A stretch of DNA of 64,000 nt from Bryum argenteum (taxonomy: Eukaryota > Streptophyta > Bryopsida > Bryales > Bryaceae): NCBI GenBank assembly GCA_037043015.1, contig CM073323.1, positions 27,308,758-27,372,757 of the forward strand, read 5' to 3'. Shown here in pieces: positions 1 through 54,146 of the stretch; the stretch's first letter is position 1; every line of letters starts with the position of its first letter. Both the position numbers and the translations under genes were made by a program. Under the pieces are notes generated by a model that saw only the letters and a list, made by a program, of their open reading frames with translations, ran no database searches and was not told where the DNA came from.

Positions 1-1708
1 ATTGTATTGCAGTAGTTACGTACCTGGACCCGGAAAGCATATGTCGTAAAAGGATGCAACTTCCTCACAACAAACGCGTTCACGTGACCCTTGTAAACCT
101 CAGATACCATTGCTGGATCAACAAATGTCCCTTGTGGGAGGCTTTCCTCTCCATACCCGAGATCTAGCATCTCGAGTACGGAGTTCTTCACTGCTTTACC
201 ATTACAGCTAAAAGAAGTCCAACTGCATGGAAAAGAAAATAAAAAAATATGTCAATATCTAAAGTCTTTTGTTTGGAGTGTAGAAATGAGAGCTTTCTAG
301 AAACTCACCTCAGAGAAATGGCCTTGGAAGTTACATTCTGAACAAGTGGAGCCTTTGGTACTTCTGGTGGTGCTGAGTCCGTCATCACCACTGAACTGTA
401 CAAAACCAAAATGAACATCAAATTAGCAGAGTTCAACAACAAACTTCAATTTTTGATGTGTACGTACATACCAGAGTGAGGGCTATCCCCTCGCTCGTTA
501 TGTGCATAAACACACACGACGTAGTTGGTGCCGGGCTCCAACTCTTTGGCGACAAACTTGTTCTCCCGGATTGTGCTCACGCTATTACTTTTGGAATTTT
601 GAGGACTGAACGACTGTGTCTGTACATACATCTGCACCAAATTGTCGCATAAGATTGTTTGCAGAAGAGAATTCACAAAAGTAATCGATTTTTGCAATCA
701 CACATTGTCAACAACCATATCAGCTCTTACCTCCACACAATAGAATTCAATGGATCTCCCGCCATCATGCACAGGAGGACGCCATGCCAGTTCAATTGAA
801 TGGGTGCCATGTTTCGAAACCACTGGTTTTGATGGCTCTGATGGTGGACCGGATTCGGTAATTAAGGTAGCTGCCGATCAATATAATAAAGTTAAGCTTG
901 CTTGCAACATTTCTTTCTATGAGACAAATTGATAAGCAAGATGAGAATGATTCACTTACTTTGAAATGTCCATGATCCGAGTGTAGTTAGAGTGCGGATG
1001 CGTACTCCAACCTTTGATGCAGGTGGAAGAGCAGCCAATTGGTGCGAGCGGGCACTTCCGTGATATACCATGGTCCAGGCCTTACCAGTTCCAAGCTTCG
1101 TGTCAATCTCGAATCTGCAGGCTCAATTTTTCAACATGAAAATCTATTCGACAAAACATTCCATCATAATACATTGAGAAGCGTGAGTGCGATGCATACA
1201 TGGTTCCCGGAGGAAAGGCGTAAGTGTTGTCGTCCCAATTGAGGTGGATGGTTGTTGCAGTGATCCTCCATGTCACGCTGGGCTCTCCAACATGCGAAAC
1301 TAGAGACTGTCCTTGGAACTCTTCAACCCTACTGCCAGCATCACTCTCCATACTCGATTCTGCAGCATCCATGTATAGAGGCTCCTTGGTGCTTGCAGTA
1401 TCGCAAACCACCTTCTCTTTGCCATTCCTTTTCGCGACCTCTTCGGCTTGGGCGTGTGCCTTGTTTTCCGCCTCTACAATGTCGGTAGTTGCAGCAAAAC
1501 CCTGAGATTCTTCATCTTCTACAGACATCATGGTTGAATTTGTGAGATTTGCGTCCACCAGGTTGGAAGCAATCTCCTTCTCTACCATCTCTAAACAGTT
1601 CGTCATCTTCTCTTCAGGCTCGTTCTCTTCGTGTGGCGCTACAGCCGCTGGCGCTACCACCTCTAATGTGACCACTTTTCGCTCTAGAACCGAGTCCTGC
1701 AACAACAT
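1..1708 (-). CDS. Fibronectin type III (FNDC3-like) protein, copy A, 3' part outside window
   Basis: The predicted exons on the minus strand are 1708-1200, 1114-960, 870-731, 631-472, 390-309 and 222-24. All have consensus splice borders and together make 415 open codons; the rest of the gene lies left of the window. The ATG at 1708 is the first after an in-frame TAG. Residues 1-130 are acidic and low complexity. Then come at least three FN3-like modules, recognisable from W..P, 'PPASKVGVRIRT' and 'PGTNYVVCVYAHNE'. This order, plus the hydrophobic tail seen in copies B and C, resembles the FNDC3 family, whose animal members are tail-anchored ER/Golgi proteins; that role here is inference. Unlike copies B, C and E, no defect is visible in this part. 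The function in plants is not known to me. Confidence 0.75.
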
Positions 1709-1732
1709 CTTGCGCGAGACTCTCTTGAGCTA

Positions 1733-5030: not shown

Positions 5031-5479
5031 AAACAAGGGACATGCCATAACTCTCAAAAAGGAGGATGACCATCAATGACATATCCAAGGATCGAGGGTA
5101 GTATTTAAAGAGCCCCAAATAAAGAGCTCATCCATTAGGACGAGGAGGATCTTACTTACAAATTAATCAAATGTTTTTATTTGTGTGTCAGGAGGACACA
5201 ATATATACTAGTACATAATACATAAATACCAGTATGCTTGGCCGACATTGCCATGCCTACACAAATACTTTGATCTTGCCTCTTCATACTACTATAAGCA
5301 AAATATTAAAAGATCAAAGATTCTTAAGAAAAGAAAGAAACCAATTTTAGATTTTATGCTTGTAAGCTTGTATTACTATTTTTGATATTTTTCTCGGGCT
5401 CCAAACATCATGATTTTCTAACATTTGCATGGTTTCTTTACTAAATGAATTTTTTGCACAAAACAAGGAACAATTATTC

Positions 5480-5771
5480 AAAAATCTCAATTCAAGTTCG
5501 AGCTTATCAAGCAAAACCAGTTACAACTTCAAAACCATTCTTAGCTTCTCCACTTGCAAATGAAATATAGAATATACTATTAGCCTCGACTCGATTCCTT
5601 CTACTCAGATCGAAATTACATTCGAAACAAAAACAAGTCAAAGAGATAGAGAAATACGCTTCCATTACCTTGGTCATGCTTAACAATGATCTTCCAAAAG
5701 AAACATTGGTAGCACGAATAATCTGTAACAATCGATCAATCCTCTGGCATAAAACGGTCTTTTCTGGCCTC
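5480..5771 (-). pseudogene. NOL pseudogene 1, terminal exon and 3' flank
   Basis: The last coding residues of NOL ('ARKDRFMPED' and stop at 5736-5738) and the 3' flank match 50160-50470 of the intact gene. Immediately upstream, instead of the preceding NOL exon, the sequence runs into the SARKLA gene fragment, giving a chimeric open frame at 5736-5993. The missing middle exons of this copy reappear at 12628-13855, so a 6.9-kb block (about 5772-12627) separates the two parts. Confidence 0.75.
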
Positions 5772-6060
5772 AAAATGAAGGCGGCCTGAAAATGAAGGCA
5801 GGCGGAGAAGCACTCTGGGCCAGGTAGGTCCTGAAGCACCCATAGAGAAGCCGCAAGCTACCTTGCGGACGCTGGGGGCCGCTTGCTCATGCCATCGTAA
5901 AGCTGGTTGCTGAACAGCTCGGCACGGGCGTGGAAGGCGCCGAGCGTTGATGGCCGCGCACCAACATGCCCTCACCCCGCTTGTCACTCTCATCCCCGTC
6001 CCAGTCCTTGTCCCCCGCGCCTGTCTCTCCTCCCCTGCCGCTCTTGCTAAACTCCAGAGT
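5772..6060 (-). pseudogene. First-exon fragment of a SARKLA-motif coiled-coil-type gene, copy 1
   Basis: This matches 13856-14137 and 31471-31759. It is frameshifted and lacks the start region. It sits directly against the NOL terminal exon. See the copy at 13856 for the motif and possible identity. Confidence 0.6.
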
Positions 6061-6204
6061 CTAAAAAGCTTCTAATAAAAAATGTGGATTTGCATGGGGA
6101 GAGGACATGAAAATCCTCATTTTTCATGAATACTCTTCTCATGAATTTGGAATAATTTTGAGATATTCATCTCATGAACTTTAAGTTTCTCGTTGTGAAT
6201 ATCA

Positions 6205-9892: not shown

Positions 9893-10164
9893 CAATGCTC
9901 TCAACTCTCCGGCGCTCCAGCGCTCCAGTACTGCGAAAATGAAAACAAGGAGAAATGAAACAAGGAGAATTGAACAAGGATATTTGAAACCATGAATCAT
10001 GTTGATTTTTCTAGTTAATGAATCATATTGTAAATAACTTATTCCAACAAACTTGTTGGTTGCCTACATTTTCGTCAGGGTCAAGCTGAGAGGCAGGGCG
10101 GGAGAGGTGAGAGTGTGAGACCATGGCGCTCAGCTGCCTCTTAAGGTGGTCCCGGTACCCATCT

Positions 10165-11114
10165 TCATATCCACACTACTCTCCGAGCAAGCTTCACCCA
10201 CAATCACCACAATCCCCGAGCTTCAGTTCCGAACGCCACCACCTCTGACCATAACGGAGCACAGTCTCTCAAACAAACTAGCACTCAAACTGTGAAAATC
10301 CTCCGCGTGAGAAACTAAACTTAGCTCTCCGAACTGTGGCAATCCGATTTGAGGAAACTATGGTAGCTCTCAAAACTGTGAGAATCCTTTTGGGAGAAAC
10401 TAAGCTTAGCTCTCAGAACTGTAGCAATCCGATCTGGAAAAACTAAGTTGGCTCTCAAGACTGAACACTGGCTCGTTTCGAGGAAACTAGCTCTCAGAGC
10501 AAGCAGAGGAGTCAGAGGAGTCGGCAGAGCGGTACTTCCCATGCGGCCAATTCTTTTCTTCATGGCTATTTACAAAGATTTGAATCTTTGGTTATCATGA
10601 GCGATTGCAAGGGCTCGTGTTCAGACATTCATGGCATGATAATATTCACTTTTGATTTCTGATTTTTGATTTTGATGGGGGTGCCATGGAAAGGGATGGG
10701 AATTGTGACCATGACCTTCTCCTGGCACAAATGGCAATCATGTGCCGGGGCCAATGTACACTGGTCCCCACTTTTGACTTTTCCTCCTTTAGGGAGTTGG
10801 GGATATTCAACAAGATGTGAAATATTTGGTTTGCAACGGAGAATATTCAACTAGATTGTTGGATGTTATGTTCCTGCGACCATTATAGGCACTTTTGGAA
10901 TAGGTATTGCCATCTTCCTTTGTTAAATGTTTGGGCTTATGCTTGTAAGCCTATGTTTGAACACTTAATGTAAGTGTAGTAACATCTTTGTTTGTGGTGA
11001 TATAAGTGATGTCTTTGAGTGTATCAAAGAAGATTGTATTGGGTGATTCATGATTTACTTACTTTTCCTTTCTACTCGGATGAGATACATGTGGTTTCAG
11101 GCCTTTATAATAAT
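10165..11114. repeat. Region X, copy 1 (upstream DNA of the SARKLA gene)
   Basis: This matches 14165-15000 and 31797-32690; the match resumes at 12095-12620 after an element insertion. Near 10270-10510 it holds degenerate tandem units of about 45-50 bases built on 'agctctcaaaactgtg'. In copies 2 and 3 this region lies directly 5' of the SARKLA fragment's start, so it is probably that gene's promoter or leader. No recognisable protein. Confidence 0.6.
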
Positions 11115-11118
11115 TTAA

Positions 11119-12090
11119 CCCCTAAACGTCCCTAGTGTCGAAAAATGACATTTTGGATGAAGGGCAAAAACTTTGAAGAGCCATAACTTCTTCATCCAAA
11201 TTCTGTTTTTGAATAAATCACTTGGGTTAGGTCACAAATCAAGTCTAGTTTATGTGGTAAAAATTGCAGAATCATAAAATAAAGTATGAATAAATGGCAT
11301 GGATTTTGGTGAAGGCAGCTTTTGTTTTTGGGTTTTCAAACATTTGGCATGTTTTACCATTGCAAGCCAATTATTTGAAATCTAAAATAGTTTTTCATGA
11401 ATTTTTTTTCATAGGTTTGATATTTAGATGCATCCCAACAACTTTATAGTTGAAAGTTTTTTGATCTAGATAACTTCGGTATTGGCTTTGTAATGATGTT
11501 TCTACGATGAAAAAAGTGAAAAAATGGATGATCTTAAAAGAGCTATATCTCCTTCATCCACCGTTAGATTTTGACTTTATTTTTTGGGATGGATTCCAAT
11601 TATAGTCTATTTTTAGTGTTAGAAACCTTGACCCAATCGAGGATATATTGAAGAATAGGCATGGATTTGAGTGCGAGGGGTCTAGTTTTGGACTATTTTT
11701 CTTTTGTAAAAATTTTGGCATTTTTCACAACTACAAGGCTACCATTTGAGCCAAGGTTTTTTTTTGATGAATTTTTTTGGTACAAGAGTGTCTTTGAGAT
11801 GAAGATGAACAACTTTCTAGTTGCTGATTTTTTAATTGCAAATTTCATACTGGTAGTATTTTCACTTCAAAGTGGAAATGATGGTATTTTGTAGCCTGTT
11901 TTGCACACTAATATGTTATGATCTCGCAATCTATGAGGTCCCATGAGTCAAGCTTTGGTTCACATGATTTACTACAAGTCTTATACAAGTTTGTGTGGCT
12001 GAGATCTGAATAGCTTATCTTTATTTTCATCTATATCACTTTTTTTGAAAACGAGTTTTTGGCTAAAAATACCCCAAGGCCGTTTAGGGG
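11119..12090. mobile_element. piggyBac-like non-autonomous element, 972 bp
   Basis: It starts 'cccctaaacgtccc' and ends 'ccgtttagggg', flanked by TTAA at 11115-11118 and 12091-12094. Copies 2 and 3 of the surrounding region (near 15003 and 32678) have a single uninterrupted 'gaattaatgtgtg', an empty site. A relative of nearly the same length is at 44693-45665. No transposase gene. Confidence 0.8.
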
Positions 12091-12094
12091 TTAA

Positions 12095-12620
12095 CGTGTG
12101 AAGGTTCTTGCTTTATCTTTATTATCGTATTCTATACATGAAACAACTGGTTGGGCAGGTCCCCTTTTCTTAAGAGCAACTTCAAAATTATAATGTATCT
12201 CATCATAAACTCTATGGAAGAATATGTATATTTTTGAATGCATTCACAACGAGGAGATACTTAACGAGGACTAATTTCCCCACCAAAACTCTTCAAATAG
12301 AGATGAAGAGATAGCATTTACTACATTGGAATATTCCTATGGAAACCCAAGGCCCGGTGAAGTATGGTAAAGACTTTGAAAATATATGTTCGTCAACGTG
12401 TTTCAACTTTTAATCTAACCCATCGATGCCTAAGCCTTTTCAAAACATCCAAAAGCCTCTGAAACCTTGTTGTACTGAAGAGATTAGTATATAAAGTTAG
12501 ATTTATAAATCTCTAATGGTAAGATCTTGACTCTTGAAGTTAGTGAACCTATTCATGTAATGTATTGTTTTCTTTTTAACAACGAGTATTCGAGTTAAAC
12601 AATTGGATTCGCCCCAACCT
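12095..12620. repeat. Region X, copy 1, right part
   Basis: Continues the match to 15003-15305 plus 15650-15930, but without the hAT MITE carried there (empty site at about 12367: 'ggtaaagactttg'). It ends at the junction with NOL pseudogene 1. Confidence 0.7.
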
Positions 12621-12627
12621 TGGATTC

Positions 12628-13855
12628 GCAACCTTCCTAAGATATTATGGAAACCATGTGAGGAGGATCCAGAGCAAAAGGGTCGAATCGCTCCATCTCT
12701 CCAGGTTCTGCAAGGACATTGATGAAGAACTTCGCCTGCAGACATGCGAATATAAATTGCTAAGTAACATCTCAACCACTGAAAATAAGTTTCAGCACCA
12801 ACTGCCATAAAATGGTAAAACTGTACACAGAACGAAATCCAACATTCTCTCACCTTACAATTAGTTCAATGCTCTTTTGAGCAGATAATATACAAACAAG
12901 TCGCGTGATATCATTTGCTTCTTGACACTGTCTACCGGGCTGTTCACCACAAAAATCCAGTGAAGGAACAATCCTTTGGAAGCACGTTAAGTAATGCAAA
13001 AAAACTGACAGTGAAACATCAACCACCTTGACTATAACTGGTGTATTTCCATCTTTGACAATATTCTTAGAAAGGAACCTCAATGATATTGTGTTCTAAA
13101 GCATCAGGTTATCCTCTTAACTACATGAAATTCAAAGGAAAAGTATATCATGCCGATAAGTTGTGAACCACCACATTCTGAATATTTGACTGCTTCAACT
13201 CTGCCTGTACAATACCAGCATTACTCAGCCACTACTAGTGCAAAATAACAACAGTCTATCCATCCTACATGACATTTTGTAGGCATTGGATGGCTCCTTG
13301 AACTTGGGGAGTTATTTGCTGCAGTATCACCTATTGAGCTTTTGATTAAGCTAACGTACACAAACCAATATGAACATGGGCTTATAAGTAAAAGCCTCTG
13401 AAATTGCACATGTTGGTAAAAGACTAGTCACTCAATCGTGAGCATATGAAAAGAAATGAAGTCGAGTACCTGCAACGACTTTGTGAATTGTGCAAGACTG
13501 CGTTTAGTAGCTCCATAAGCTGCATATCTAGCAACCCAAGGAACTCAGTAATGAAGACTTCACCACACAACAGCATTGGCCAATAACATGGCATGAGTAA
13601 CAAATCTCAGAACAAGAAACTGCAACTGTCTATGCCTAAAAGATGTATTAAAAGGAGGTGTTCAGTGCATATTACAGCAAACTATTAGAGGTACATTGGA
13701 GTTGCATTGCCATCTGCTCCTGCACCATCCATGTTGAAAATATGTCCACCTCTTCGCTATTCCTTCATTAAATTGATAGCCTATTTACCTTGCAGTACTT
13801 AATTTTCAGCTCTCAGCCATAAAGATGTGCAATATTTTCATATCATTGTCATGGG
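12628..13855 (-). pseudogene. NOL pseudogene 1, internal exons
   Basis: This contains NOL exon equivalents for 'GGHIFNMDGAGADGNATP' (near 13720), 'YAAYGATKRSLAQFTKSLQ' (near 13510), 'QSNIQNVVVHNLS' (near 13190) and 'AKFFINVLAEPAE' (near 12720). The exon 'GMVTTDLLMSGSDT' is removed by a deletion of about 160 bases near 12925, shared with pseudogene 2. The 5' exons are missing: at 13855 the NOL intron switches abruptly to the SARKLA fragment. The penultimate exon ('VAEYLVP') is also gone on the left side. Confidence 0.85.
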
Positions 13856-14137
13856 GGGGTTGAAGGCAGGGGGAGAAGCAGACTGGGACAGGAAGGTCCT
13901 GAAGCTCCCATAATAAGCCGCCAGCTTCCTCGCGGACGCTGAGGGCGGCTTACTCATGCCGTCGTAGAGCTGGTTGTTGAACACCTTCCAGCTCCGCACG
14001 GGCGTGGAAGGCACCGCGCATCGATGGCCGCGCACCAACATGCCCCCAACCGGCTTCTTCACTCTCTTCCTCGTCGCCGTCCCCGTCCCCGCGCCCGTCT
14101 CTCCTCGCCTGCTCCCGCTGCTATAACTCCCTGCCAA
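13856..14137 (-). pseudogene. First-exon fragment of a SARKLA-motif coiled-coil-type gene, copy 2
   Basis: The best-preserved copy reads from an ATG at 14137 for about 92 codons. It has a basic, Gly/Ser-rich start, then 'STPVRSWKVF' and 'SKPPSASARKLAA'. The order TPV-x-x-W ... SARKLA is what I recall from the N-termini of plant coiled-coil proteins related to BRANCHLESS TRICHOME; this identification is tentative. GC content is higher than the surroundings. The remaining gene is absent because the fragment is cut where it meets the NOL intron. It is probably the 5' end of a gene broken by tandem duplication. Confidence 0.45.
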
Positions 14138-15305
14138 TGTTAAACCCTCGCAGCCTTCTCCCCATCATCCACCTCCATCGCCACAGTACTCTCCGAGCAA
14201 GCTTCACCCACAATCACCACAATCCCCGAGCTTCAGTTCCGAACGCCACCACCTCCCACCATAACGGAGTACAGTCTCTCAAACAAACTAGCTCTCAAAA
14301 CTGTGAAACTCCTCCCATGGGACAAACTTGCGGGCTCAAAACTGTGGCATTACGTTTTAAGAGAACTAAGATAGCTCTCAAAACTGTGAGAATCCTTTTG
14401 AGAGACACTGAGCTTAGCTCACAGAACTCGCGGAAACTAGCTCTCAGAGCAAGCAGAGGAGTCAGAGGAGTCGGCAGAGCGGTACTTCCCATGCGGCCAA
14501 TTCTTTTCTTCAAGGCCATTTACAAAAGTTTGAACTGTTGGGTATCATGAGCGATTGCAAGGGCTCGTGTTCAGACATTTATGGGATGATGGTATTCACT
14601 TTTGATTTTTGATTTTGAATTCGATGGGGGTGCCATGGAAAGGGATGGGAATTGTGACCATGACCTTCTCCTGGCACAAATGCCAATCATGTGCCGGGGC
14701 CAATGTACACTGGTCCCCACTTTCGACTTTTCCTCCTTGGGGATATTCAACAAGATGTTAGATATTTGGTTTGCAAGGGAAAATATTCAACTAGACTGTT
14801 CGATGTTATGTTCCTGCGACCATTATTGGCACTTTTGGAATAGGTATTGCCAAATTGTAGTGACATCTTTGATCGGTGATAGATTGTGATGTATTTGAGT
14901 GTATCGAAGAAGATTGTATTGGATGATTATAATTATTTTTTTATTTTTTTATTTTTTTTGTCCTTTCTACTAAGATGAGATACATGTGGTTTGAGGTTTT
15001 AGTGATGAATTAATGTGTGAAGGTTCTTGTTTTATCTTTATTATCATATTCTATGAAACAATTGGCTTCGCGGGGCCAAATTCCCAAGAACAACTTCAAA
15101 ACTATAATGTATCTCTTCATAAACTCTATGGAAAAATAAGTATATTTTGTGAATGCATTTACAACAAGGAGATTCTTAAAAGTAAATTTTTCCTCCAAAA
15201 CTCTACAAATAGAGATGAAGAGATAGCATTTACCAAAATGGAATATTCCTATGAAAACCCAAGGCCCCGCCAACATGTTCATAAATTGAACATTAAAAAA
15301 GTATG
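14138..15305. repeat. Region X, copy 2
   Basis: Near-identical to 31760-32979 and related to 10165-12620. It begins with CT- and CA-rich DNA right at the SARKLA start codon, then degenerate 'agctctcaaaactgtg' units at 14275-14450. Plus-strand open frames here are not conserved between copies, so I read this as upstream regulatory DNA rather than a gene. Confidence 0.6.
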
Positions 15306-15313
15306 GGAAAGCC

Positions 15314-15641
15314 CAAGGTTGTCAAACCGGGCACATTTAGGTGATCGGGCGGGCAAACCGGGCAGACTAGTTGTCCTGGGTAGGCGTACCTTGAATGTAG
15401 GGGGTGAGTAATTTTTCGTGGGTAACAAAATTTGAAGTAAAAGCATGTGTGGAGCCCCACATGGCATGTACGTGGCGGCCAAGTGGCGAAGTTTTCACCT
15501 AAACCTTTGCCACATCGTCGTTTTTTTACCTTAACTAAAAGTCAACAGCCGATTTGACCCTCTCCGGCGAGCGAGAACTCAATCGGACGGGCAAGTCGGG
15601 CGGGCGGGCAAGCGGCGTGCCTGCTCGGTTTTACAACCTTG
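15314..15641. mobile_element. hAT-like MITE, 328 bp
   Basis: The termini 'caaggttgtcaaaccgggc' and 'gctcggttttacaaccttg' are inverted repeats. They are flanked by the 8-bp duplication GGAAAGCC (15306-15313 and 15642-15649), as expected for the hAT superfamily. Region X copy 1 has the empty site near 12367. The same insertion is at 32988-33315. The core is GC-rich (gggcgggca motifs) and non-coding. Confidence 0.85.
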
Positions 15642-15649
15642 GGAAAGCC

Positions 15650-16522
15650 TTTGATTACATGTGTTCGTCACCGTGTTTCAACTTTTAGTCCAACCCTTTG
15701 ATGCCTAGGTCTTTTCAAAACATTCAAAAGCCTCTAAAACCTTGTTGTATATAAAATTAGATCTTAAAATCTCTAATGGTAAGATCTTGACTCTTGAGCT
15801 TAGTTAAACTATTCATATAATGTTTTCTTTTTTTAAATTTTTTTTTTTTGTTTTTAATTTTTTTTTTAAAAAAAAAATTAATTTCTTTTTTTTTTAACAA
15901 CGAGTATTCGAGTTAAGGAATTGGGTTCACCCCTATATTGACAAGCGTACAAATGAGTGAATCCAACTTTGGCAAATTGTATTAAACTTGAACACAAGGC
16001 TATTCCATGAGATGTAAGAAGGTCAACACCACTTCAAGCAATTAATAACTGTATTAGAGCCTAAAATGTGGGAGCTCAAAGTTGATGACTGAATAAAGAG
16101 AAGTGGGCATGCCTTTTTGTAGGACCATTCTACAACACAATTTGATTTTTGTGTTGAATAGTCACTTGTAAATGTATGAGTGTCACATAGGAAAAATGCA
16201 ACACAAAATTGGAATACGAGATGCAAACATGTGCATTTATTTCAATCACAGATACACAAGTTAAAGAATAGAGAAAGATGCTCTTGTGCACCAAAGTAAA
16301 GCCTCCGCAAGTGCCCCAAGAAAAACACAACAACACCAACAAGCACTATGTTTTGAGAGACTTAGGACGAGGACAAGTTGTACATTCTGTACAATTTACA
16401 GTAAGTTGTAAGGCATGACACTAATGTGAAAAGACGCTTCTATTGTTGTATTTTGGCTTGATTTCAATGCACAAATATTTAGGAAGAGTGCACGCATTGA
16501 CCATTTGGAAACTTAATGTTGC
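15650..16522. other. Intergenic spacer with long A/T homopolymer tracts
   Basis: Contains poly-T and poly-A runs at about 15826-15898. No gene recognised. It matches 33324-33597, 34175-34453 and 34722-34967 in the second unit, which carries two extra TTAA-flanked insertions. Confidence 0.6.
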
Positions 16523-18047: not shown

Positions 18048-18053
18048 GTTGCT

Positions 18054-20335: not shown

Positions 20336-23300
20336 TCAATAAAAAAAGTCTTGGAAGAACCTGAATGAGAAAAAAGAAACAACGGAAATCAGCACGATCC
20401 ACACATGCCAGAACCACTTGAACCGCTTGACGAAATCAACTCCCTTCTCCAACCACGATTGGTGAGCTTTCTTCACGAGGAGCTTCATCTCCTTCTTCGA
20501 CTTGATGCTTTTGGCGGAAGAAGATGTTGATGCTCGTGCGGCAAGTGCAGTTTCTGGTGGTGCTCGTGTAGGCGATGTTGGCTTGAGAGCTGTTGAAGCG
20601 ACCACAGTTGTTGCAGGGTGCCACGGGTTTCTGCCTCTTCGACAACAACTCGAAGGACTTTGCAGTTGGAGCCTTCTTCTTCTGAATCGGCACGGGCTCC
20701 GATTTGAAAGCCATAATCGGAGACTTAGCAAATCTTGAGCTCTCCTCTTCTGGTGGAGGTGCCACTCCAAGCTTCTTAGGTGCGGGGATCATACCTTAGG
20801 CTTTTAGCTTAGCACGTTTTGGCTTCTCTTCCTTCCCCTTGAGATGCCTCTACGAGCTTCCGAGAATCAACCTTGGTGTTTGGGTGTGTAGGCGTGTTGG
20901 CGGACTCCACCTTGACACGAACCTTTTTCAATGTCTTAGGTACCTCAACTACAAGTGGCAAATCTGCCCATTTCGAAGGACCCTGAGGTGCTCGCCTCTC
21001 CAATTCTGGCACCTCCAATGCTGCAATCTTGGATTGAGCGGCATGAACTACAACATTCTCTGGTGCTTTGCTCTCGCGAGGGAGCTCTTCGATGTCGACA
21101 GTTGTAGGAGGTAGCTGTATTGGTGGTGCGTCAAATGCCGGGAGCTCGATCACTGCCACTTTGCTAAGTTCGCTGGCCCCGCGAGCATTGATAGCCTGCA
21201 ATTTCAAAACAAAGTATTCAGTTCACTTTAGCAAGGGTAAAAATTCTTTATCGAAAAAACTCTGGCTTTGTCAAAAGTACAAACCTGCACTGCTGCTCTG
21301 TAATTTGATGCTCTGATGAGGTTTGACAAATTGTGTAGTTTAGCCTCCCCTTCGTAAATCTTTCTCAATGGCCCTCCTCGGCCATCGTCTAAGTGAAGCG
21401 CATACCTGCACAACTCAAAATTAGAGCCATGGTCAGTTCACAAATGAGTATACCTAGCTCCAAAGGGTTAGCTTCACATGCATATTTATTGAAGCATCGA
21501 GTTTGGCTTCCCTTTGCCCAGTTGAAGGTTAGTACCTTGAAACGGGCATGCCATTATCAGATTGTGGAGTTGTCCACTTGATTTGCATTGTTGTAGGCGA
21601 CACTTTATCGAATGTGGGTGGTGGTGGCGTTCCAGGTGGATTAGGAAGTAATTTTGCCACTGAAATTGAGCTTGGAGATGATGAGCCATGAACATTATGG
21701 GCTTTCACTCAGAACCTGTACTCACGGCCCGGAGATAGACCTTTGATCTCAGACCTGTTGCATCCATGTAAATTATCAGCCTAGCATGAACAAATAATTG
21801 TGAACTCCAAGCTCAATATTATCATCCACAACAAAAAATTCTACTGCTACAAAATCATCATGGCTTACCAAAGTTCTTGGCCATCGTAGACCACGATCCA
21901 GGCTCGAGTGGGTGAAGATGAGACAGCTTGCTTTACAGCCGCATTCTTCTTGCCTTGAAGTTTCTTTGGCTCGGAGGGTGTGAGTGCTCCCACTTCCTGC
22001 ATCTCAAGTGTGTACTTGAACACAGGAGCGCCATTGTCTCGCTGTGGAGCCTAAAAACATCAACAAATAAGGCTGAAATTGGTACAATTGTTGTACTACT
22101 TGTCATAGTAGCAACGGTGTGCAAGAGAGACTCATCGTCCATATCAGTTTAGCAGCCATTGATTTCGTCTCAATCACTTTGGGTTGTTGGGGAGGATTTG
22201 GGGCCGCTTGAGTAGTCTTGCAAATAGAAAATTTGCTAAACCCACTTGATCCGATTGCATTGATTGCCTACATCGATAAACATAGCATTCATCACAAGCT
22301 CAGAAAGAAAGAAAGCCTGTCGAATTGCATTGCAGTAGTTACGTACCTGGACCCGGAAAGCATATGTCGTAAAAGGATGCAACTTCCTCACAACAAACGC
22401 GTTCACGTGACCCTTGTAAACCTCAGATACCATTGCTGGATCAACAAATGTCCCTTGTGGGAGGCCTTCCTCTCCATACCCGAGATCTAGCATCTCGAGC
22501 ACGAAGTTCTTCACTGCTTCACCATTACAGCTAGGAGAAGTCCAACTGCAGAGGAAAAAAAAAAAAAAAAAAAAAAAATGTGTCAATATCCAAAGTCTTA
22601 TGTTTGGAGTGCAAAAATGAGAGCTTTCTAGAAACTCACCTCAGAGAAATGGCCTTGGAAGTTACATTCTGAACAAGTGGAGCCTTTGGTACTTCTGGTG
22701 GTGCTAGGTCCGTCATCACCACTGGAACTGTAGAAAACCAAAATGAACATCAAATTAGCATAGTTCAACAACAAACCTCAATTTTCAATTTTTGATGTGT
22801 ACGTACATACCAGAGTGAGGGCTATCCCCTAGCTCGTTATGTGCATAAACACACACGACGTAGTTGGTGCCGGGGTCCAACTCTTTGGCGACAAACTTGT
22901 TCTCCCGGATTGTGCTCACGCTGTGACTTTTGGAATTTTAAGGACTGAACGACTGTGTCTGTACATACATCTCCACCAAATTGTCGCATTAGATTGTTTG
23001 CAAAAGAGAATTCACAAAAGTAATTGAGTTTTGCAATCACACATTGTCAACAATCATATCAGCTCTTACCTCCACGCAATAGAATTCAATGGATCTCCCG
23101 CCATCATGCACAGGAGGACGCCATGCTAGTTCAATTGAATGGGTGCCATGTTTCGAAACCACTGGTTTTGATGGCTTCGATGGTGGACCGGATTCGGTAA
23201 TTAAGGTAGCTGCCGATCAATATAATAAAGTTAAGCTTGCTTGCAACATTTCTTTCTATGAGACGAATTGATAAGCAAGATGAGAATGATTCACTTACTT

Positions 23301-23697
23301 TCAAATGTCCATGATCCGAGTGTAGTTAGAGTGCGGATGCGTACTCCAACCTTTGATGCAGGTGGAAGAGCAGCCAATTGGTACGAGTGGGCACTTCCGT
23401 GATATACCATGGTCCAGGCTTTACCAGTTCCAAGCTTCATGCCAATCTGGAATCCCCAAGCTCAATTTTTCGACATGAAAATCTATTCGACAAAACATTC
23501 CATTTTAACACATTGAGAAGCGTGAGTGCGATGCATACATGGTCCGTGGAAGAAAGGCGTAAGTGTTGTCGTCCCAATCGAGGTCGATGGTTGTTGCAGT
23601 GATCCTCCATGTCACGCTGGGCTCTCCAACATGCGAAACTAGAGACTGACCTTGGAACTCTTCAACCCTACTGCATGCATCACTCTCCATACTCGAT
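20336..23697 (-). pseudogene. FN3-domain (FNDC3-like) pseudogene, copy B
   Basis: The exons parallel copy C (about 23697-23541, 23454-23300, 23209-23070, 22972-22812, 22724-22640, 22546-22355, 22268-22140, 22050-21868, 21752-21536, 21405-21285, 21195-20809, then the tail to 20336). Defects: the 5' end including the acidic leader and upstream minisatellite is deleted at about 23697; the acceptor of the second exon is changed from CTGCAG to CTTGGG; an extra C near 20836 shifts the frame before the basic tail; an extra G near 20617 shifts the tail frame. The C-terminal hydrophobic segment 'WHVWIVLISVVSFFSF' is still readable. It is clearly non-functional unless re-spliced. Confidence 0.85.
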
Positions 23698-30157: not shown

Positions 30158-30161
30158 TTAA

Positions 30162-31470: not shown

Positions 31471-31759
31471 CATGGGGGGGTTGAAGGCAGGCGGAGAAGC
31501 AGGCTGGGACAGAAAGGTCCTGAACCTCCCATAATAAGCCGCCAGCTTCCTCGCGGACGCTGGGGGCGGCTTGCTCATGCCGTCGTGAAGCTGGTTGTTG
31601 GAACACCCTCCAGCTCCGCACGGGCGTGGAAGGCGCCGCGCGTCGATGGCCGCGCACCAACATGCCCCCACCCGGCTTCGTCACTCTCATCCTCGTCGCC
31701 GTCCCCGTCCCCGCGCCCGTCTCTCCTCGCCTGCCGCCGCTTCTATAACTTCCTGCCAT
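31471..31759 (-). pseudogene. First-exon fragment of a SARKLA-motif coiled-coil-type gene, copy 3
   Basis: The ATG at 31759 begins the same basic, Gly-rich start and 'STPVRSWRVF'. An extra base near 31600 then shifts the frame, so 'MSKPPPASARKLAAYYG' is read in another frame (31671-31459). See copy 2. Confidence 0.55.
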
Positions 31760-32979
31760 TGTTAAACCCTCGCAGCCTCCTCCCCATCATCCACCTCCAT
31801 CGCCACAGTACTCTCCGAGCAAGCTTCACCCACAATCACCACAATCCCCGAGCTTCACTCCCGAACGCCACCACCTCTCACCATAACGGAGTACAGTCTC
31901 TCAAACAAACTAGCTCTCAAAACTGTGAAAATCCTCCCATGAGAGATACTAGCGAGCTCAGAACTGTGGCATTACGTTTTAGGGAAACTAAGATTAGCTC
32001 TCACAACTGTGAGAATCCTTCTGGGGGAAACTAAGATTAGCTCTCAGAACTGTGGCGATCCGATTTGGGGGAACTAAGTTGGCTCTCAAGACTGTGAACA
32101 CTGGCTCGTTTCGCGGAAACTAGCTCTCAGAGCAAGCAGAGGAGTCAGAGGAGTCGGCAGAGCGGTACTTCCCATGCGGCCAATTCTTTTCTTCAAGGCC
32201 ATTTACAAAGATTTGAATTTGTGGTTATCATGAACGATTGCAAGGGCTCGTGTTCAGACATTCATGGCATGATGATATGCACTTTTCATTTTTGATTTTG
32301 AATTCGATGGGGGGGTGCCATGGAAAGGGATGGGAATTGTGACCATGACCTTCTCCTGGCACAAATGCCAATATGTGCCGGGGCCAATGTACACTGGTCC
32401 CCACTTTCGACTTTTCCTCCTTGGGGATATTCAACAAACGTTAGATATTTGGTTTGCAAGGGAAAATATTCAACTAGACTGTTGGATGTTATGTTCGTGC
32501 GACCATTATTGGCACTTTTGGAATAGGTACCGAATTGTAGTGACATCTTTGATGGGTGATAGATTATGATGTATTTGAGTGTATCGAAGAAGATTAAATT
32601 GGATGATTCATAATTTATTTTTTTATATTTTTGGTCCTTTCTACTGAGATGAGATACATGTGGTTTGAGGTTTTAGTGATGAATTAATGTGTGAAGGTTC
32701 TTGTTTTATCTTTATTATTGTATTCTATGAAACAATTGGCTTGGCGGGGCCCAATTCCCAAGAACAACTTCAAAATTATAATGTATCTCTTCATAAACTC
32801 TATGGAAAAATAAGTATATTTCGTAAATGCATTTACAACGAGGAGATTCTTAAAAGTAAATCTTTTCTCCAAAACACTACAAATAGAGATGAAGAGATAG
32901 CATTTACCAAAATGGAATATTCCTATGGAAACCCAAGGCCCCGCCAACATGTTCATAAATTGAACATTAAAAAAGTATG
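31760..32979. repeat. Region X, copy 3
   Basis: Near-identical to 14138-15305, with one or two more 'agctctcaaaactgtg' units (31905-32110). Non-coding by the same argument. Confidence 0.6.
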
Positions 32980-32987
32980 GGAAAGCC

Positions 32988-33315
32988 TAAGGTTGTCAAA
33001 CCGGGCACATTTAGGTGATCGGGCGGGCAAACCGGGCGGACTAGTTGTCTCGGGCAGGCGTACCTTGATTGTAGGGGGTGAGTAATTTTCGTGGGTAACA
33101 AAATTTGAAGTAAAAAGCATGTGTGGAGCCCCACATGGCATGTACGTGGCGGCCAAGTGGCTAAGTTTTCACCTAAACCTTTGCCACATCGTCATTTTTT
33201 TACCTTAATTAAAAGTCAATAGCCGATTTGACCCTCTGCGGCCAGCGAGAGCTCAATCGGACGGGCAAGTCGGGCGGGCGGGCAAGCGGCGTGCCTGCTC
33301 GGTTTTACAACCTTG
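32988..33315. mobile_element. hAT-like MITE, second copy
   Basis: The same insertion as 15314-15641, with the same 8-bp duplication GGAAAGCC (32980-32987, 33316-33323). The first terminal base is mutated. Being at the same place in both units, it predates the duplication of the units. Confidence 0.85.
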
Positions 33316-33601
33316 GGAAAGCCTTTGATTACATGTCTTCGTCACCGTGTTTCAACTTTTAGTCTAACCCTTTGAGGCCTAGGTCTTTTCAAAACATTCA
33401 AAAGCCTCTAAAACCTTGTTGTATATAAAATTAGATTTTTAAATCTCTAATGGTAAGATCTTGACTCTTGAGCTTAGTTAACCTATTCATGTAATATATT
33501 GTTTTCTTTTTAACAACGAGTATTCGAGTTAAGGAATTGGGTTCGCCCCTATATTGACAAAAGTACAAATGAGAGAATCCAACTTTGGCAAATTGTATTA
33601 A

Positions 33602-37283: not shown

Positions 37284-40200
37284 TCAATAAAAAAAGTCTT
37301 GGAAGAACCTGAATGAGAAAAAAGAAACAACGGAAATCAGCACGATCCACACATGCCAGAACCACTTGAACCGCTTGACGAAATCAACTCCCTTCTCCAA
37401 CCACGATTGGTGAGCTTTCTTCACGAGGAGCTTCATCTCCTTCTTCGACTTGATGCTTTTGGCGGAAGAAGATGTTGATGCTCGTGCGGCAAGTGCAGTT
37501 TCTGGTGGTGCTCGTGTAGGCGATGTTGGCTTGAGAGCTGTTGAAGCGACCACAGTTGTTGCAGGTGCCACGGGTTTCTGCCTCTTCGACAACAACTCGA
37601 AGGACTTTGCAGTTGGAGCCTTCTTCTTCTGAATCGGCACGGGCTCCGATTTGAAAGCCATAATCGGAGACTTAGCAAATCTTGAGCTCTCCTCTTCTGG
37701 TGGAGGTGCCACTCCAAGCTTCTTAGGTGCGGGGATCATACCTTAGGCTTTTAGCTTAGCACGTTTTGGCTTCTCTTCCTTCCCTTGAGATGCCTCTACG
37801 AGCTTCCGAGAATCAACCTTGGTGTTTGGGTGTGTAGGCGTGTTGGCGGACTCCACCTTGACACGAACCTTTTTCAATGTCTTAGGTACCTCAACTACAA
37901 GTGGCAAATCTGCCCATTTCGGAGGACCCTGAGGTGCTCGCCTCTCCAATTCTGGCACCTCCAATGCTGCAATCTTGGATTGAGCGGCATGAACTACAAC
38001 ATTCTCTGGTGCTTTGCTCTCGCGAGGGAGCTCTTCGATGTCGACAGTTGTAGGAGGTAGCTGTATTGGTGGTGCGTCAAATGCCGGGAGCTCGATCACT
38101 GCCACTTTGCTAAGTTCGCTGGCCCCGCGAGCATTGATAGCCTGCAATTTCAAAACAAAGTATTCAGTTCACTTTAGCAAGGGTAGAAATTCTTTATCGA
38201 AAAAACTATGGCATTGTCAAAAGTACAAACCTGCAGTGCTGCTCTGTAATTTGATGCTCTGATGAGGTTTGACAAATTGTGTAGTTTAGCCTCCCCTTCG
38301 TAAATCTTTCTCAATGGCCCTCCTCGGCCATCGTCTAAGTGAAGCGCATACCTGCACAACTCAAAATTAGAGCCATGGTCAGTTCACAAATGAGTATACC
38401 TAGCTCCAAAGGGTTAGATTCACATGCATATTTATTGAAGCATCGAGTTTGGCTTCCCTTTGCCCAGTTGAAGGTTAGTACCTTGAAACGGGCATGCCAT
38501 TATCAGATTGTGGAGTTGTCCACTTGATTTGCATTGTTGTAGGCGACACTTTATCGAATGTGGGTGGTGGTGGCGTTCCTGGTGGATTAGGAAGTAATTT
38601 TGCCACTGAAATTGAGCTTGGAGATGATGAGCCATGAACATTATGGGCTTTCACTCGGAACCTGTACTCACGGCCTGGAGATAGACCTTTGATCTCAGAC
38701 CTGTTGCATCCAAGTAAAATTATCAGCCTAGGATGAACAAATAATTGTGGACCCCAAGCTCAATATTATCATCCACAACGAAAAATTCTACTGCTACAAA
38801 ATCATCATGGCTTACCAAAGTTCTTGGCCATCGTAGACCACAATCCAGGCTCGAGTAGGTGAAGATGAGACAACTTGCTTTACAACCACGTTCTTCTTGC
38901 CTTGAAGTTTCTTTGGCTCGGAGGGTGTGAGTACTCCCACTTCCTGCATCTCAAGTGTGTACTTGAACACAGGAGCGCCATTGTCTCGTTGTGGAGCCTA
39001 AAAACATCAACAAATAAGGCTGAAATTGGTACAATTGTTGTACTACTTGTCATAGTAGCAACGGTGTGCAAGAGAGACTCATCGTCCATATCGATTTAGC
39101 AGCCATTGATTTCGTCTCAATCACTTTGGGTTGTTGGGGAGGATTTGGGGCCGCTTGAGTAGTCTTGCAAATAGAAAATTTGCTAAACCCACTTGATCCA
39201 ATTGCATTGATTGCCTACATCGATAAACATATTATTGATCACAAGCTCAGAAAGAAAGAATGCCTATCAAACAAACTCAATTGTATTGCAGTAGTTACGT
39301 ACCTGGACCCGGAAAGCATATGTCGTAAAAGGATGCAACTTCCTCACAACAAACGCGTTCACGTGACCCTTGTAAACCTCAGATACCATTGCTGGATCAA
39401 CAAATATCCCTTGTGGGAGGCCTTCCTCTCCATACCCGAGATCTAGCATCTCGAGCATGAAGTTCTTCACTGCTTCACCATTACAGCTAGGAGAAGTCCA
39501 GAAAGAAAATAAAATAAAATATGTCAATATCCATAGTCTTATGTTTGGAGTGTAGAAATGAGAGCTTTCTAGAAACTCACCTCAGAGAAATGGCCTTGGA
39601 AGTTACATTGTGAACAAGTGGAGCCTTTGGTACTTCTGGTGGTGCTGGGTCCGTAATCACCACTGAAACTGTACAGAACCAAAATGAACATCAAATTAGC
39701 ATAGTTCAACAACAAACCTCAATTTTCAATTTTTGATGTGTCCGTACATACCAGAGTGAGGGCTATCCCCTAGCTCGTTATGTGCATAAACACACACGAC
39801 GTAGTTGGTGCCGGGCTCCAACTCTTTGGCGACAAACTTGTTCTCCCGGATTGTGCTCACGCTGTGACATTTGGAATTTTGAGGACTGAACGACTGTGTC
39901 TGTACATACATCTCCACCAAATTGTCGCATTAGATTGTTTGCAAAAGAGAATTCACAAAAGTAATCGATTTTTGCAATCACACATTGTCAACAATCATAT
40001 CAGCTCTTACCTCCACGCAATAGAATTCAATGGATCTCCCGCCATCATGCACAGGAGGACGCCATGCCAGTTCAATTGAATGGGTGCCATGTTTTGAAAC
40101 CATTGGTTTTGATGGCTTCGATGGTGGACCGGATTCGGTAATTAAGGTGGCTGCCGATCAATATAATAAAGTTAAGCTTGCTTGCAACATTTCTTTCTAT

Positions 40201-41039
40201 GAGACGAATTGATAAGCAAGATGAGAATGATTCACTTACTTTGAAATGTCCATGATCCGAGTGTAGTAAGAGTGCGGATGCGTACTCCAACCTTTGATGC
40301 AGGTGGAAGAGCAGCCAATTGGTACGCGTGGGCACTTCCGTGATATACCATGGCCCAGGCCTTACCAGTTCCAAGCTTCATGTCAATCTCGAATCTGCAG
40401 GCTCAATTTTTCTACATGAAAATCTATACGACAAAACATTCCATTATAACACATTGAGAAGCGTGAGTGCGATGCATACATGGTTCCCGGAGGAAAGGCA
40501 TAAGTGTTGTCGTCCCAATTGAGGTGGATGGTTGTTGCAGCGATCCTCCATGTCACGCTGGGCTCTCCAACATGTGAAACTAGAGACTGTCCTTGGAACT
40601 CTTCAACCCTACTGCCTGCATCACTCTCCATACTCGATTCTCTTTGGAACTCTTCAGCCCTACTGCTTGCATCACTCTCCATACTCGATTCTGCAGCATC
40701 GATGCATAGAGGCTCCTCGGTGCTTGCATTGTCGCAAACCACCTTCCCTTTGCCTTTCCTTTTCGCGACCTCTTCGGCTTGGGCGTGTGCCTCGTTTTCC
40801 GCTTCCGCAATGTCGGTAGTTGCAGCAAAACCCTGAAACTCTTCATCTCCTACAGACATCATGGTTGAATTTGTTGGACTTTCGTCCACCAGGTTGGAAG
40901 CAATCTCCTTCTCTACCTTCTCTAAACAGTTCGTCATCTTCTCTTCAGGCCCGTTCTCTTCCTGTGGCGCTACAGCGGTTGGTGCTACCACCTCTAACGT
41001 GACTACTTTTCGCTCTAGAACCAAGTTTTGCGACAACAT
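37284..41039 (-). CDS. Fibronectin type III (FNDC3-like) protein, copy C, possibly a pseudogene
   Basis: The exons are 41039-40480, 40394-40240, 40150-40011, 39911-39752, 39662-39581, 39500-39303, 39214 to about 39080 (donor unresolved), 38997-38816, 38700-38482, 38351-38231 and 38141-37743. An acidic leader of about 150 residues (with an in-frame 51-bp duplication at 40595-40690) precedes about five FN3 modules; the later ones carry 'APQRDNGAPVFKYTLEM' and 'TTPQSDNGMPVSRYALHL'. A basic end ('RAKLKA') is followed by TAA at 37743-37745. The next codons continue in the same frame for 150 residues to a hydrophobic 'WHVWIVLISVVSFFSF' near the true C-terminus, as in tail-anchored FNDC3 proteins. 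The acceptor of the 39500 exon is deleted (copies A and B have GCAG). Function unknown; two defects suggest decay. Confidence 0.65.
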
Positions 41040-50424: not shown

Positions 50425-53400
50425 TCAATCCTCTGGCATGAAACGGTCTTTTCTTGCCTTAAAAAGCAACCTCTACACACACGGAATGTATTGATCAGAT
50501 AATTGACTGTCAAAATTTGTAAAGACATAGAGAAAAGGAAACTCACCGCTAGTATTTGAGTGTATGCTTTGAAGCCAGTGAGGTAGCGTGTGTAAGTGCT
50601 GTTGTTTTTGTTCTCTCCAACAATTTTTCGAACTCGTGGTACAAGATACTCAGCAACCTGGAAGATGACCAACACAATTCTCAGTAACATAGAGACTAAT
50701 CAAGCACTCTTCAAATGCCAAAAGAGAATGTGCAATGGGGAGGATATGGAAACTGATTACATTACATGGTGACAAGTAGGATGTTAAACACACCAGGCTA
50801 TATCGCAACCTTCTAATCACTTTCCTAAGATATTATAGAAACCATGTTTGAGGAGGATCCAGAGCAAAGGGGTCGAATGGTACCGTCTCTGCAGGTTCTG
50901 CAAGGACATTGATGAAGAACTTGGCCTGCAGACATGCGAATATAAATTGCCAAGTGACATCTCAACCACTGAAAATAAGTTTCAGCAATAACTGCCGTGA
51001 AATGGTAAAATTGTATACAGCACGAAATCCAACATTCTCTCACCTAACAGTGGATTCAATGCTCTTTTCAGCAGATAATGTACAAACAGATAGCATGATA
51101 TCATTTGCTTAATGATACTGTCTATGATTTCCATAGATTCGGATAATAAGAATCGTAACTAGTATAAGAGGGGTCATTTTTCTTTCTAGAGCTGATGCAA
51201 ATAAAAGATCAGATGAGATTGACTACCGTACCTGGCGGGTGTCACTTCCTGACATCAAGAGGTCAGTCGTGACCATGCCGGGCTGTACACCACAGAAACC
51301 CAGAGGCGTGTTAAGGAACAATCCTTTACGTAATGCATAAATCTGACAGTAAAACATCAACGATCCTACCTAAAACTGGTGTTTTTCCATCTTTGACACT
51401 ATTCTTAGGAAGCAACCTCAATGATCTTGTGTTCTAAGGCATCAGGTTATCCTCTTAGCTGCATGGAAATTCAGAGGAGAAGTATACCATACCGATAAGT
51501 TGTGAACCACCACATTCTGAATATTTGACTGCTTCAACTCTGCCTGTACAATACCAGCATTAGTCAGTTATAACAGTCAGTCTATCCATCCTACATGACA
51601 TTTTATAAGCATTAAATGGCTCCTTGAACTTGGGGAGTTATTCGCTGCAGTATCACCTATTAAGCTTTTGATTGAACCAACATACACAATCCAATATAAA
51701 CATGGGCTTATATTCATGGGCCTCTGAAATTGCACATGGTGATAAAAGACTAGTCCTTCAATCGTGAGCATATGAAAAGACATGGAGTCGAGTACCTGCA
51801 ACGATTTTGTGAATTGTGCAAGACTGCGTTTAGTAGCTCCGTAAGCTGCATATCTAGCAACCCACGGAACTCAGTAATAACGACTTCCACCACACGACAG
51901 CATTGACCAATAACATGGCATGTGTAACAAATCTCAGAAGAAGAAACTGCCACTGTCTATGCCTAAAAAGATGTATTGAAAGAAGGTGTTCAGTGCCTAT
52001 TACAGCACACTTTTAGAGGTACCTTGGAGTTGCATTGCCATCTGCTCCTGCACCATCCATGTTGAAAATGTGTCCACCTCTTCGCTGATCCTTCATTAAC
52101 TTGATAGCCTATTCACCTTGCAATACTCAATTTTCAGCTCTCAGCCATAATGATGTGCAATACTTTCATTATCATTTTCAGAAAGGATAGACTGTACCTG
52201 CCGGCAACAGAGCATGACCCCGAGGGTATTGGTCTCCACTATCTCCCTGCCAAATGCCACCTTTGAGAAAAAGCATACAGCAGCCTTAAAGGCATACAGC
52301 GAATGCTATCACTTCATGCTAGTAAGAGCAATTGTCTAATTTCCTTACATGATGTCAGCATCGTCAGACTCCACGAGTGATTTGTTCTGGTACGAATTCG
52401 TGCCCGCATTATTTATCTGCTCCAAAAAAAGCATCCATTAGAGAAGAATGATAAGATTTTACTCAAGAAGCTAACAAACAACAACAGTGTTGAAGAAGTT
52501 TCAAAATCAAAGCACTTACCCAAACATCGACATATCCGAGGCTGCTCTTGGCATAATCAGCTAAGGCTTGGATGCTTTTGGGATCTCGAACGTCACAGGC
52601 CTTCCCCTGGAAAGATTCAATGTGAATAAGCAAGCATTCTGAGGAGATGAGATAACTTTGATGGAGATTGAAGCTCTGCTCACCCAAACGCGTTGCTCCC
52701 CGAACTGGCTCCGAAGCTTTTGCACTACTTCCTGAACCTTGTCCTCTGCAGAAATGGCACAAAACATTCAAGCTCTGCTCACAAATCAAGTGCTCAAATC
52801 GGATCTATTCTCATTAAAAAAAAGTGGTTGGTGAAGAAGAAATGAATCTATCTCCTCTTATCTAAGCTGACATTCAAAGCTTGAAAAAACCGTTCAATAG
52901 GTACATATCAACCTTCCTCGATGCCGATTCAAGTATCATTAGACACTTGCTTGAGATCATAAGAAGACACCTATTCCAAATTCGCAGGTTTGAGGTCCAA
53001 GAATGGGGTCTTATGAAGCTACTAGAAGAAAAAGAGAAAATTGTTGAAAGACGAACTATGTCTAATATCTCTAGTTTGAGCTCTCCTTGAGCATTTGAAG
53101 CTCAATATAATCCATCCTAAAAGTCAGAACATATCATCCTTTCTCGACGGCAATTTGATCATCATAAAACTCTTGATTGAGCTCATAAGACAGCGCCTAT
53201 TCTTTCCACGCATATTTGAAAGACTAGTAGGAGGTCGTATCAGTAACTCGTGAAGCTCCTAGGTTCATGAAGTAGAAATGAATCTATCTTTCTCTTTTCT
53301 AAGCTCTCCATCAGCATTTGAAGCTTGAAACATTCCATTCATTGATATCAATATATCCCCAGGTACATATTATCCTTTCTCGGTGCCAACTTGAGTATCA

Positions 53401-54146
53401 TAAACTCTTGATTGAAATCATAAGACGAAACCTACTCTTCTCACGCACATTCGATAGAGTAGTACAAGTCAGGACGGGGACTTGTCACTAACTCGTGAAG
53501 CTATTAAAATTTCTGAGAAACAAATGCATCTGTCTTATCTCATAAGAGCTCTCCTCCAAAATTCATACAAGATATCGAAGCTTGACATATTCAATACAGT
53601 ATCCCCAGGTACATATCATCCTTTCTCAATTGCCAATTCAAGTATGCAAAACCGCTTATTCTAGTGAAATATGAATGTCTGGGGTGCATTCATACAGACC
53701 TGATCGCGAGCAAACAATCACGTTGTCTCCATTCCGAAGAAACTCCTCAGCAAGAGCCAAACCAACACCTGAAAAAATAGGCATATCCTCATCAAGATAC
53801 AAGCTCTTCTGCAATGAAATTGCCATTTGCTCGAGAAAGAAGTGGTCATGCCTTTTGTGGAGCCAGTGATGAGCACATTGAAGGGTGCCCCAGCCGTTCT
53901 TGCAGCATCAAGCTCCGACATTCCTTCTTGCTTGGCAGGCGCCACACTACATCTCACACTATTTCTGCTCCTCGGCGAATGCATCGAGCTACTTCTGCTT
54001 CTCGACAATTGGGAGACTCCATTAAAAATACCCCTGTCAAGCTTGATACTCCTCGCTTTCAATGGCACCACCGCTTTTGAATAACTGTGGCTTGCTTGAG
54101 GGCTCTGTGCCCAAGCCAAAGCAGGAAGGGTCACCGCCATAGCCAT
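50425..54146 (-). CDS. NOL: Chlorophyll(ide) b reductase, NOL type (SDR family)
   Basis: It reduces chlorophyll b to 7-hydroxymethyl chlorophyll a in plastids, the first step of chlorophyll b and light-harvesting-complex breakdown. Known NOL works with NYC1. The 13 exons are 54146-53852, 53768-53700, 52745-52684, 52606-52520, 52416-52349, 52246-52198, 52108-52023, 51853-51796, 51543-51493, 51282-51232, 50925-50884, 50657-50547 and 50472-50425. They total 1077 nt with every phase matching, giving 358 aa, close to known NOL. Residues 1-70 are Ser/Arg-rich, a likely chloroplast transit peptide. The nucleotide-binding motif TGSTKGVG is at 94-101, NNAG at 173-176 and catalytic YGATK at 243-247, followed by 'NLSPGMVTTDLLMSG'. 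Intron 1 has a GC donor. It is the only intact NOL here and is head-to-head with UNC-50. Confidence 0.95.
52800..53660. repeat. Tandem repeats inside NOL intron 2
   Basis: About four degenerate units of roughly 200 bases, each with 'ggtacatat', then 'cctttctcg.tgccaa.ttgagtatcat', 'tgattga.atcataaga' and 'agct.ctcc..agcatttgaagcttgaa'. They account for the unusual length (954 bases) of this intron. No element ends seen. Confidence 0.65.

Follow-up and report, generated by a model that had tools for sequence, protein, structure and literature searches.

A decayed tandem array of FN3 and NOL genes with a shared breakpoint in Bryum argenteum

We analysed a 64,000-nucleotide stretch of Bryum argenteum DNA (assembly GCA_037043015.1, contig CM073323.1, forward-strand positions 27,308,758 to 27,372,757; hereafter the window, with positions counted from its first letter). 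It holds a decayed tandem array built of NOL, a gene of the short-chain dehydrogenase/reductase (SDR) kind; FN3, a gene with fn3 domains; S, the 5' fragment of a "SARKLA" gene; and X, a spacer upstream of S. In two units of the array, B and C, S continues into NOL at one and the same intron position. From the letters around them we read these two junctions, J_B and J_C, as one event seen twice and not as two products of the founding duplication. For the array as a whole we favour, at slightly better than even confidence, a tandem duplication that broke in S and in NOL intron 6, followed by re-duplication, end-joining deletions, transposon insertions and conversion.

The fusion of S to NOL

In both B and C, S joins NOL some 14–18 bases inside intron 6, at the equivalent of about 52180–52184 in the intact copy, NOL_R. 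The two junctions are identical letter for letter, a run of seven Gs included, this 7-base G/C run being the only possible mark of end joining at them. An earlier note on this DNA had proposed that two NOL copies lost their 5' halves at one intron position and that both continue into S. This is what we find, the point in intron 6 being the same, and no base-level difference of the sort that the note had named as speaking against it separates the junctions. Its coordinate for the junction in C was about 6 bp off against that in B, 13855 corresponding to 31476 and not to 31470.

At least five lesions besides the junction are common to both copies. Among them are a TAG in NOL exon 7; a change of the last base of exon 7 from G to T; a 153-bp deletion with the same ends (NOL_R 51125–51277), which leaves exon 10 without 46 of its 51 bases; a change of the exon-11 donor from GT to GA; and, with S_A as the reference, a 1-bp frameshift that follows SARKLAA in S. 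Lesions were scored against the intact NOL_R frame or the inferred S frame. Since B and C share all five, the fusion of S to NOL arose once, and an origin of J_B and J_C in independent events is ruled out. The shared lesions also indicate that the fused unit was already dead before B and C split and were re-copied. Tandem duplication with subsequent decay, as put forward earlier, is thus supported in outline, although the junctions in B and C are not separate witnesses of the founding duplication.

Over NOL, S and X, B and C are 95.2% identical (3276 aligned sites), and NOL_R is 89–91% identical to the two over NOL. S_B and S_C agree at 251 of 268 aligned bases, and S is disrupted in all three of its copies. 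S may belong to the plant USO1-like coiled-coil family; in Pfam, the 42-residue peptide of S_B matched no family. Beyond the exons listed in Table 1, exons 12–13 of NOL_C are replaced by 29394–30157, and its 3' flank resumes at 28948–29393.

A third junction of S to NOL, absent from the earlier note, lies near 5.79 kb (5776–5793) in unit A. Its S endpoint is the same as that of J_B and J_C within a few bases, and its NOL partner is the last exon instead of intron 6. S_A is 85–87% identical to S_B and S_C, has a 7–8 bp gap against them and is free of their common frameshift.

Table 1. Features of the array by window position (1-based); X copies were delimited by self-BLASTN and alignment
Feature	Position	Strand	Description
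FN3_0	1..1708	-	exons 1-6, truncated at the window edge; 1 bp deleted at exon 5
NOL_A	5420..5775	-	last exon and 3' flank only; equivalent to NOL_R 50113-50464, 91.5%
J_A	5766..5799	.	junction of S to NOL exon 13; 17-bp tandem duplication at join
S_A	5793..6055	-	"SARKLA" fragment; stop within the motif (SAR-stop-LAA)
X_A	10159..12614	.	same spacer as X_B and X_C; TTAA element at ~11115-12094 inside
Join of X_A to NOL_B	12598..12630	.	deletion join; FN3 absent between A and B
NOL_B	12615..13855	-	pseudogene: exons 7, 8, 9, 11; lesions of NOL_C also present; cut at NOL_R equivalent 50806
J_B	13852..13860	.	junction of S to NOL intron 6
S_B	13861..14130	-	"SARKLA" fragment; frameshift common to S_C
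X_B	14169..15985	.	spacer upstream of S
FN3_B	20336..23703	-	no 5' exon; altered exon-2 acceptor; two 1-bp insertions; TAA shared with FN3_C
FN3_D	24966..26807	-	fourth, partial FN3; exons 1-4 only
NOL_C	30158..31476	-	pseudogene: exons 7, 8, 9, 11; exons 1-6 absent; exon 10 largely deleted
J_C	31473..31481	.	junction of S to NOL intron 6; letters identical to J_B
S_C	31482..31750	-	"SARKLA" 5' gene fragment; two frameshifts, one common to S_B
X_C	31791..33601	.	spacer upstream of S
FN3_C	37284..41039	-	11-exon reading; fn3 domains
NOL_R	50425..54146	-	intact; 13 exons, 358 aa (exon table, translation, Pfam)
TTAA elements	11115-12094, 33598-34178, 34454-34721, 42493-42741, 44689-45669		

Layout of the array

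Self-BLASTN of the window, which gave 75 self-matches at E≤1e-5, reveals a direct-repeat array on the minus strand, far above chance, and this self-alignment confirms that the repeat structure is real. The pairs 18048–23703 with 34972–40644, 12626–15985 with 30251–33601, and 1–3102 with 39280–42496 each have an E-value printed as 0.0. All the genes read in the array lie on the minus strand. With pairwise alignments added, the order in the direction of transcription, from right to left, is NOL_R, FN3_C, X_C, S_C fused to NOL_C, the 5' part of FN3_D, FN3_B, X_B, S_B fused to NOL_B, X_A, a 4.1-kb segment, S_A fused to NOL_A, and FN3_0. Whole or partial copies number four for NOL, three for S, three for X and four for FN3.

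A repeat period of 17–18 kb had been claimed for the array. It describes the interval from B to C and not the other two of the three, successive junctions being spaced at 8.06, 17.62 and 20.71 kb. Direct repeats of the proposed order (SARKLA, X, spacer, FN3, flank, NOL) are likewise present, although the order varies between units; between X_A and NOL_B self-BLASTN finds no FN3 match. Identity over the main blocks is 85–97%, falling to about 73–75% in part of FN3_D and in one spacer. No inverted gene copies occur among the self-matches, the two minus-strand matches being a pair of TTAA elements and a GC-rich repeat.

The 4.1-kb segment (6056–10158) separates S_A from X_A, and B and C are without it. 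At E≤0.01 it matches nothing else in the window, by eye it has no clear target-site duplication, and the two of its open reading frames that were tried against Pfam matched no family.

The intact NOL gene

As had been claimed, only the rightmost NOL is intact, the other three copies being truncated. NOL_R runs from exon 1 (54146–53852) to exon 13 (50472–50425). Its introns are GT-AG in 11 of 12 cases, and intron 1 (53769–53851) appears to be GC-AG. The product matches Pfam adh_short (PF00106, 5e-44, residues 91–289), and by eye its translation contains TGSTKGVG, NNAG and YGATK, that is, all three of what we take to be the NOL/SDR motifs, the glycine-rich TGxxxGxG, NNAG and YxxxK. Among the 25 listed of 222 NCBIfam matches, all were general SDR families and none reached the cut-off. 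Beyond the SDR level, NOL (NYC1-LIKE, chlorophyll b reductase) is a putative name, and by its gene kinds the window looks like land-plant DNA. Set against ZjNOL in length and domain only, NOL_R is alike in both: ZjNOL has 344 aa with an SDR domain, compared with 358 aa here (PMC9121134).

NOL_R differs from NOL_B at 10 of 237 exon sites and 113 of 976 other sites, and from NOL_C at 13 of 237 and 101 of 977, respectively; between NOL_B and NOL_C the counts are 9 of 237 and 48 of 975. This contrast between exons and other sites fits a working NOL_R and dead NOL_B and NOL_C. NOL_R is likely to be the working gene of the array, probably with a role in chlorophyll breakdown.

A GC-rich block in the 3' spacer of NOL_R (47700–49100) combines long inverted repeats with tandem repeats of 32 bp and 44 bp. 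It is part of about 3.4 kb of sequence that is absent from unit 0.

Origin of the array

Under the duplication that we favour, an ancestral minus-strand run of NOL, FN3, X and S would have been duplicated in tandem, the duplicated stretch being bounded by breaks in the 5' part of S and in NOL intron 6. The product would carry a single fusion, 5' S followed by NOL from intron 6 onward. The first, rightmost NOL would have been kept whole, and the fused NOL half would have turned into a pseudogene. The dead unit was then re-copied by a larger duplication or by unequal crossing over, as the lesions common to B and C show. Units would have been trimmed by deletions whose joins, with 15–17 bp tandem repeats or short shared letters, look like end joining. 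Transposons landed after B and C split, as the empty sites show, and the FN3 part may have been partly overwritten by gene conversion.

Breaks in S and in NOL intron 6 imply that S continues into NOL in each copy and that no truncated NOL retains exons 1–6. All three truncated NOL copies indeed lack these exons at the self-match threshold, at which isolated exons of 49–87 bases could go unseen. The main rival is that the array first grew with whole genes by unequal crossing over, and that a later end-joining deletion fused 5' S to intron 6 of the next NOL, after which the fused unit spread. Such a product would resemble maize p2/p1, where an end-joining deletion is thought to have fused adjacent genes on the same strand (PMC2686159), and other joins in the window do resemble deletions. 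It would however need a whole intermediate unit, of which the absence of NOL exons 1–6 outside NOL_R leaves no trace; and past the S endpoint there is NOL in all three copies. With no whole S known here, leftover parts of it elsewhere would go unrecognised. We consider this deletion rather unlikely, and prefer the duplication because it takes one step fewer, making the copy and the fusion at once. The origin proposed earlier, a tandem duplication between SARKLA and a NOL intron, is accordingly the one we prefer, for it explains both the copy and the fusion, while a deletion between adjacent genes also fits.

Several observations weigh against the duplication as we have set it out. Neither the remainder of S nor the array's left end falls in the window, so that the duplication break is seen from one side only. 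Differences that B and C share against NOL_R fall at 7 of 237 exon sites and 82 of 975 other sites; part of the shared history of B and C may still have been under constraint, though the numbers are too small to say so firmly, and the seven exon differences do not tell whether the fusion was dead at birth. J_A may descend from the same fusion, a later deletion having taken out the stretch from NOL intron 6 to exon 12, yet three S endpoints coincide while the partner in J_A differs, and a second deletion starting exactly at the old junction would be an awkward coincidence. The NOL_A 3' flank, moreover, is 91.5% like NOL_R and 87.3% like NOL_C, and over the 275 columns shared by the three flanks, in an unrooted comparison, lone departures number 18 in C, 14 in A and 7 in R. 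Had R been the first to part from a single fused unit that later gave A and C, one would not expect its branch to be the shortest. Constraint or conversion in the R flank could account for the short branch, and so could J_A having arisen separately; the 275-column counts lean against a common origin of J_A with J_B and J_C, or else point to a constrained R flank.

The coincident S endpoints with differing NOL partners, and the 3' flank of A lying nearer to R than to C, are also what one would expect if X and S formed a fragment, mobile or captured, that has one fixed end and joined NOL copies on two occasions, one giving J_A and the other J_B and J_C. We hold this to be improbable. By eye, and with no systematic search made, the ends carry neither terminal repeats nor target-site duplications, and at the opposite side of X there is no shared end, the B and C copies continuing to the FN3 unit and the A copy stopping at a deletion join.

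The FN3 copies and uneven identity

The FN3 gene codes for four fn3 stretches (Pfam PF00041, 1.3e-35). Its structure matches include the FNDC3A domains 2crm (2.2e-08) and 1x3d (4.7e-08), with multi-domain titin chains matching better (1e-50); with several fn3 domains, the protein may be of the FNDC3 kind. Its exon model was read from splice signals, the end of exon 7 being without a clear donor. FN3_B and FN3_C have in common an in-frame TAA, which could in principle sit in an unrecognised intron, and FN3_C lacks, against FN3_B, a 15-bp stretch that includes the exon-6 acceptor. At the 5' end of FN3_D, an open frame (25779–26807) includes an 18-bp minisatellite of about 23 copies that codes for VTVAEE repeats (26167–26582). 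All four FN3 copies seen are damaged, though FN3_0 is only partly visible and the single-base indels could be errors of the assembly. With lesions in every copy seen, we rejected FN3 as the intact gene served by the array.

In the FN3 block, 146 of 5628 aligned sites differ between B and C, and these are unevenly spread. A mismatch-free run extends over 937 sites (gap columns left out) and the dispersion index is 7.88, neither value being reached in any of 2000 shuffles. The block of NOL, S and X, with 157 of 3276 sites differing, has no comparable unevenness: its longest run is 149 (reached in 168 of 2000 shuffles) and its dispersion 1.53 (200 of 2000). Between B and D, 607 exact bases, again a length reached in none of 2000 shuffles, are followed by a fall to about 75% identity. 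The shuffles assume independent sites and show that identity is uneven, not why it is so. This pattern suggests that the FN3 part has undergone recent gene conversion. To the left of about 3.2 kb, unit 0 matches B and C at about 95%; to the right, its identity to C is 83–88%. The step could be the trace of a crossover or the end of a conversion tract.

Long exact tracts could also come from an assembly that holds duplicated haplotypes, misjoined copies or homopolymer errors, and two lesions of FN3_B are 1-bp insertions in short G and C runs within nearly identical surroundings. That the array is in part such an artefact seems to us very improbable. Most aligned blocks differ by 3–15%, and there are copy-specific transposons with empty sites, unlike what a false duplicate would contain.

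Deletion joins and insertions

The join of X_A to NOL_B carries a 15–17 bp tandem repeat of letters from both sides, and the join of FN3_D to the adjoining flank has about six shared letters, both read by eye. The former join appears to have removed an FN3 copy, and the short repeats there and at J_A would fit end joining.

Five elements start with TTAACCCCTAA, end with GGGGTTAA and are flanked by TTAA target duplications; a sixth GGGGTTAA end lies at 30161. Paralogous empty sites are present for four of the five, and three belong to the C unit and have no counterpart in B. We take the TTAA targeting to recall piggyBac or Sola3 elements, types that to our knowledge are uncommon in plants. In B only, an insertion of about 1.5 kb (16523–18047) has TG...CA ends and a 5-bp GTTGC duplication, with C as the empty site, and looks like a solo long terminal repeat. 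Empty sites in the sister copy place the transposon insertions after the split of B and C.

Elsewhere in the window, a long minus-strand open reading frame to the right of the array (60608–62164, 518 aa from stop to stop) is coiled-coil-like and had no Pfam match above cut-off. An Rfam scan of the window gave no match at gathering scores, and a tRNA scan with bacterial settings found none.

Parallels and meaning

A literature search turned up parallels and no paper on this locus, and we make no claim that it is unpublished. The closest parallels come from maize and soybean. Maize P1-wr consists of eleven nearly perfect head-to-tail repeats of about 12 kb framed by gene fusions (PMC2686159). 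It is like the present array in its head-to-tail tandem copies and same-strand gene fusion and, going by a section heading, in having transposons in the cluster (PMC2686159). Several head-to-tail direct copies are present here as well, whereas nearly perfect working repeats are not: the maize repeats are near-perfect and the fusion is described as a functional gene, while the units here are well diverged and the extra copies of NOL, S and FN3 are broken. In maize p2/p1, filler DNA at the same-strand fusion was taken as a mark of end joining (PMC2686159); that fusion joins near-identical paralogs, and S and NOL are unrelated.

At the soybean I locus, a chalcone synthase (CHS) cluster, nonallelic homologous recombination between similar CHS genes gives deletions, and small interfering RNAs arise from the repeat structure (PMC6710647). 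The likeness lies in recombination among repeated genes, which alters copy number and yields fused genes (PMC6710647). In the present array, by contrast, the sequences that meet at the join, S and NOL, are unrelated, and the 75 self-matches contain no inverted gene copies.

It is conceivable, though we think it highly unlikely, that an S-side promoter still drives the fused units and that sense RNAs over the 3' half of NOL tune NOL_R, for example via small RNAs. If this were true, a decayed array would be acting on leaf greening. The array needs no function. What it preserves so well is an ordinary process, and we see no sign of a new mechanism or function. Its value is as a compact record in which the order of duplication, fusion, death, deletions, insertions and conversion-like tracts is largely readable, and it illustrates that two identical breakpoints in an array need not mean two independent events.

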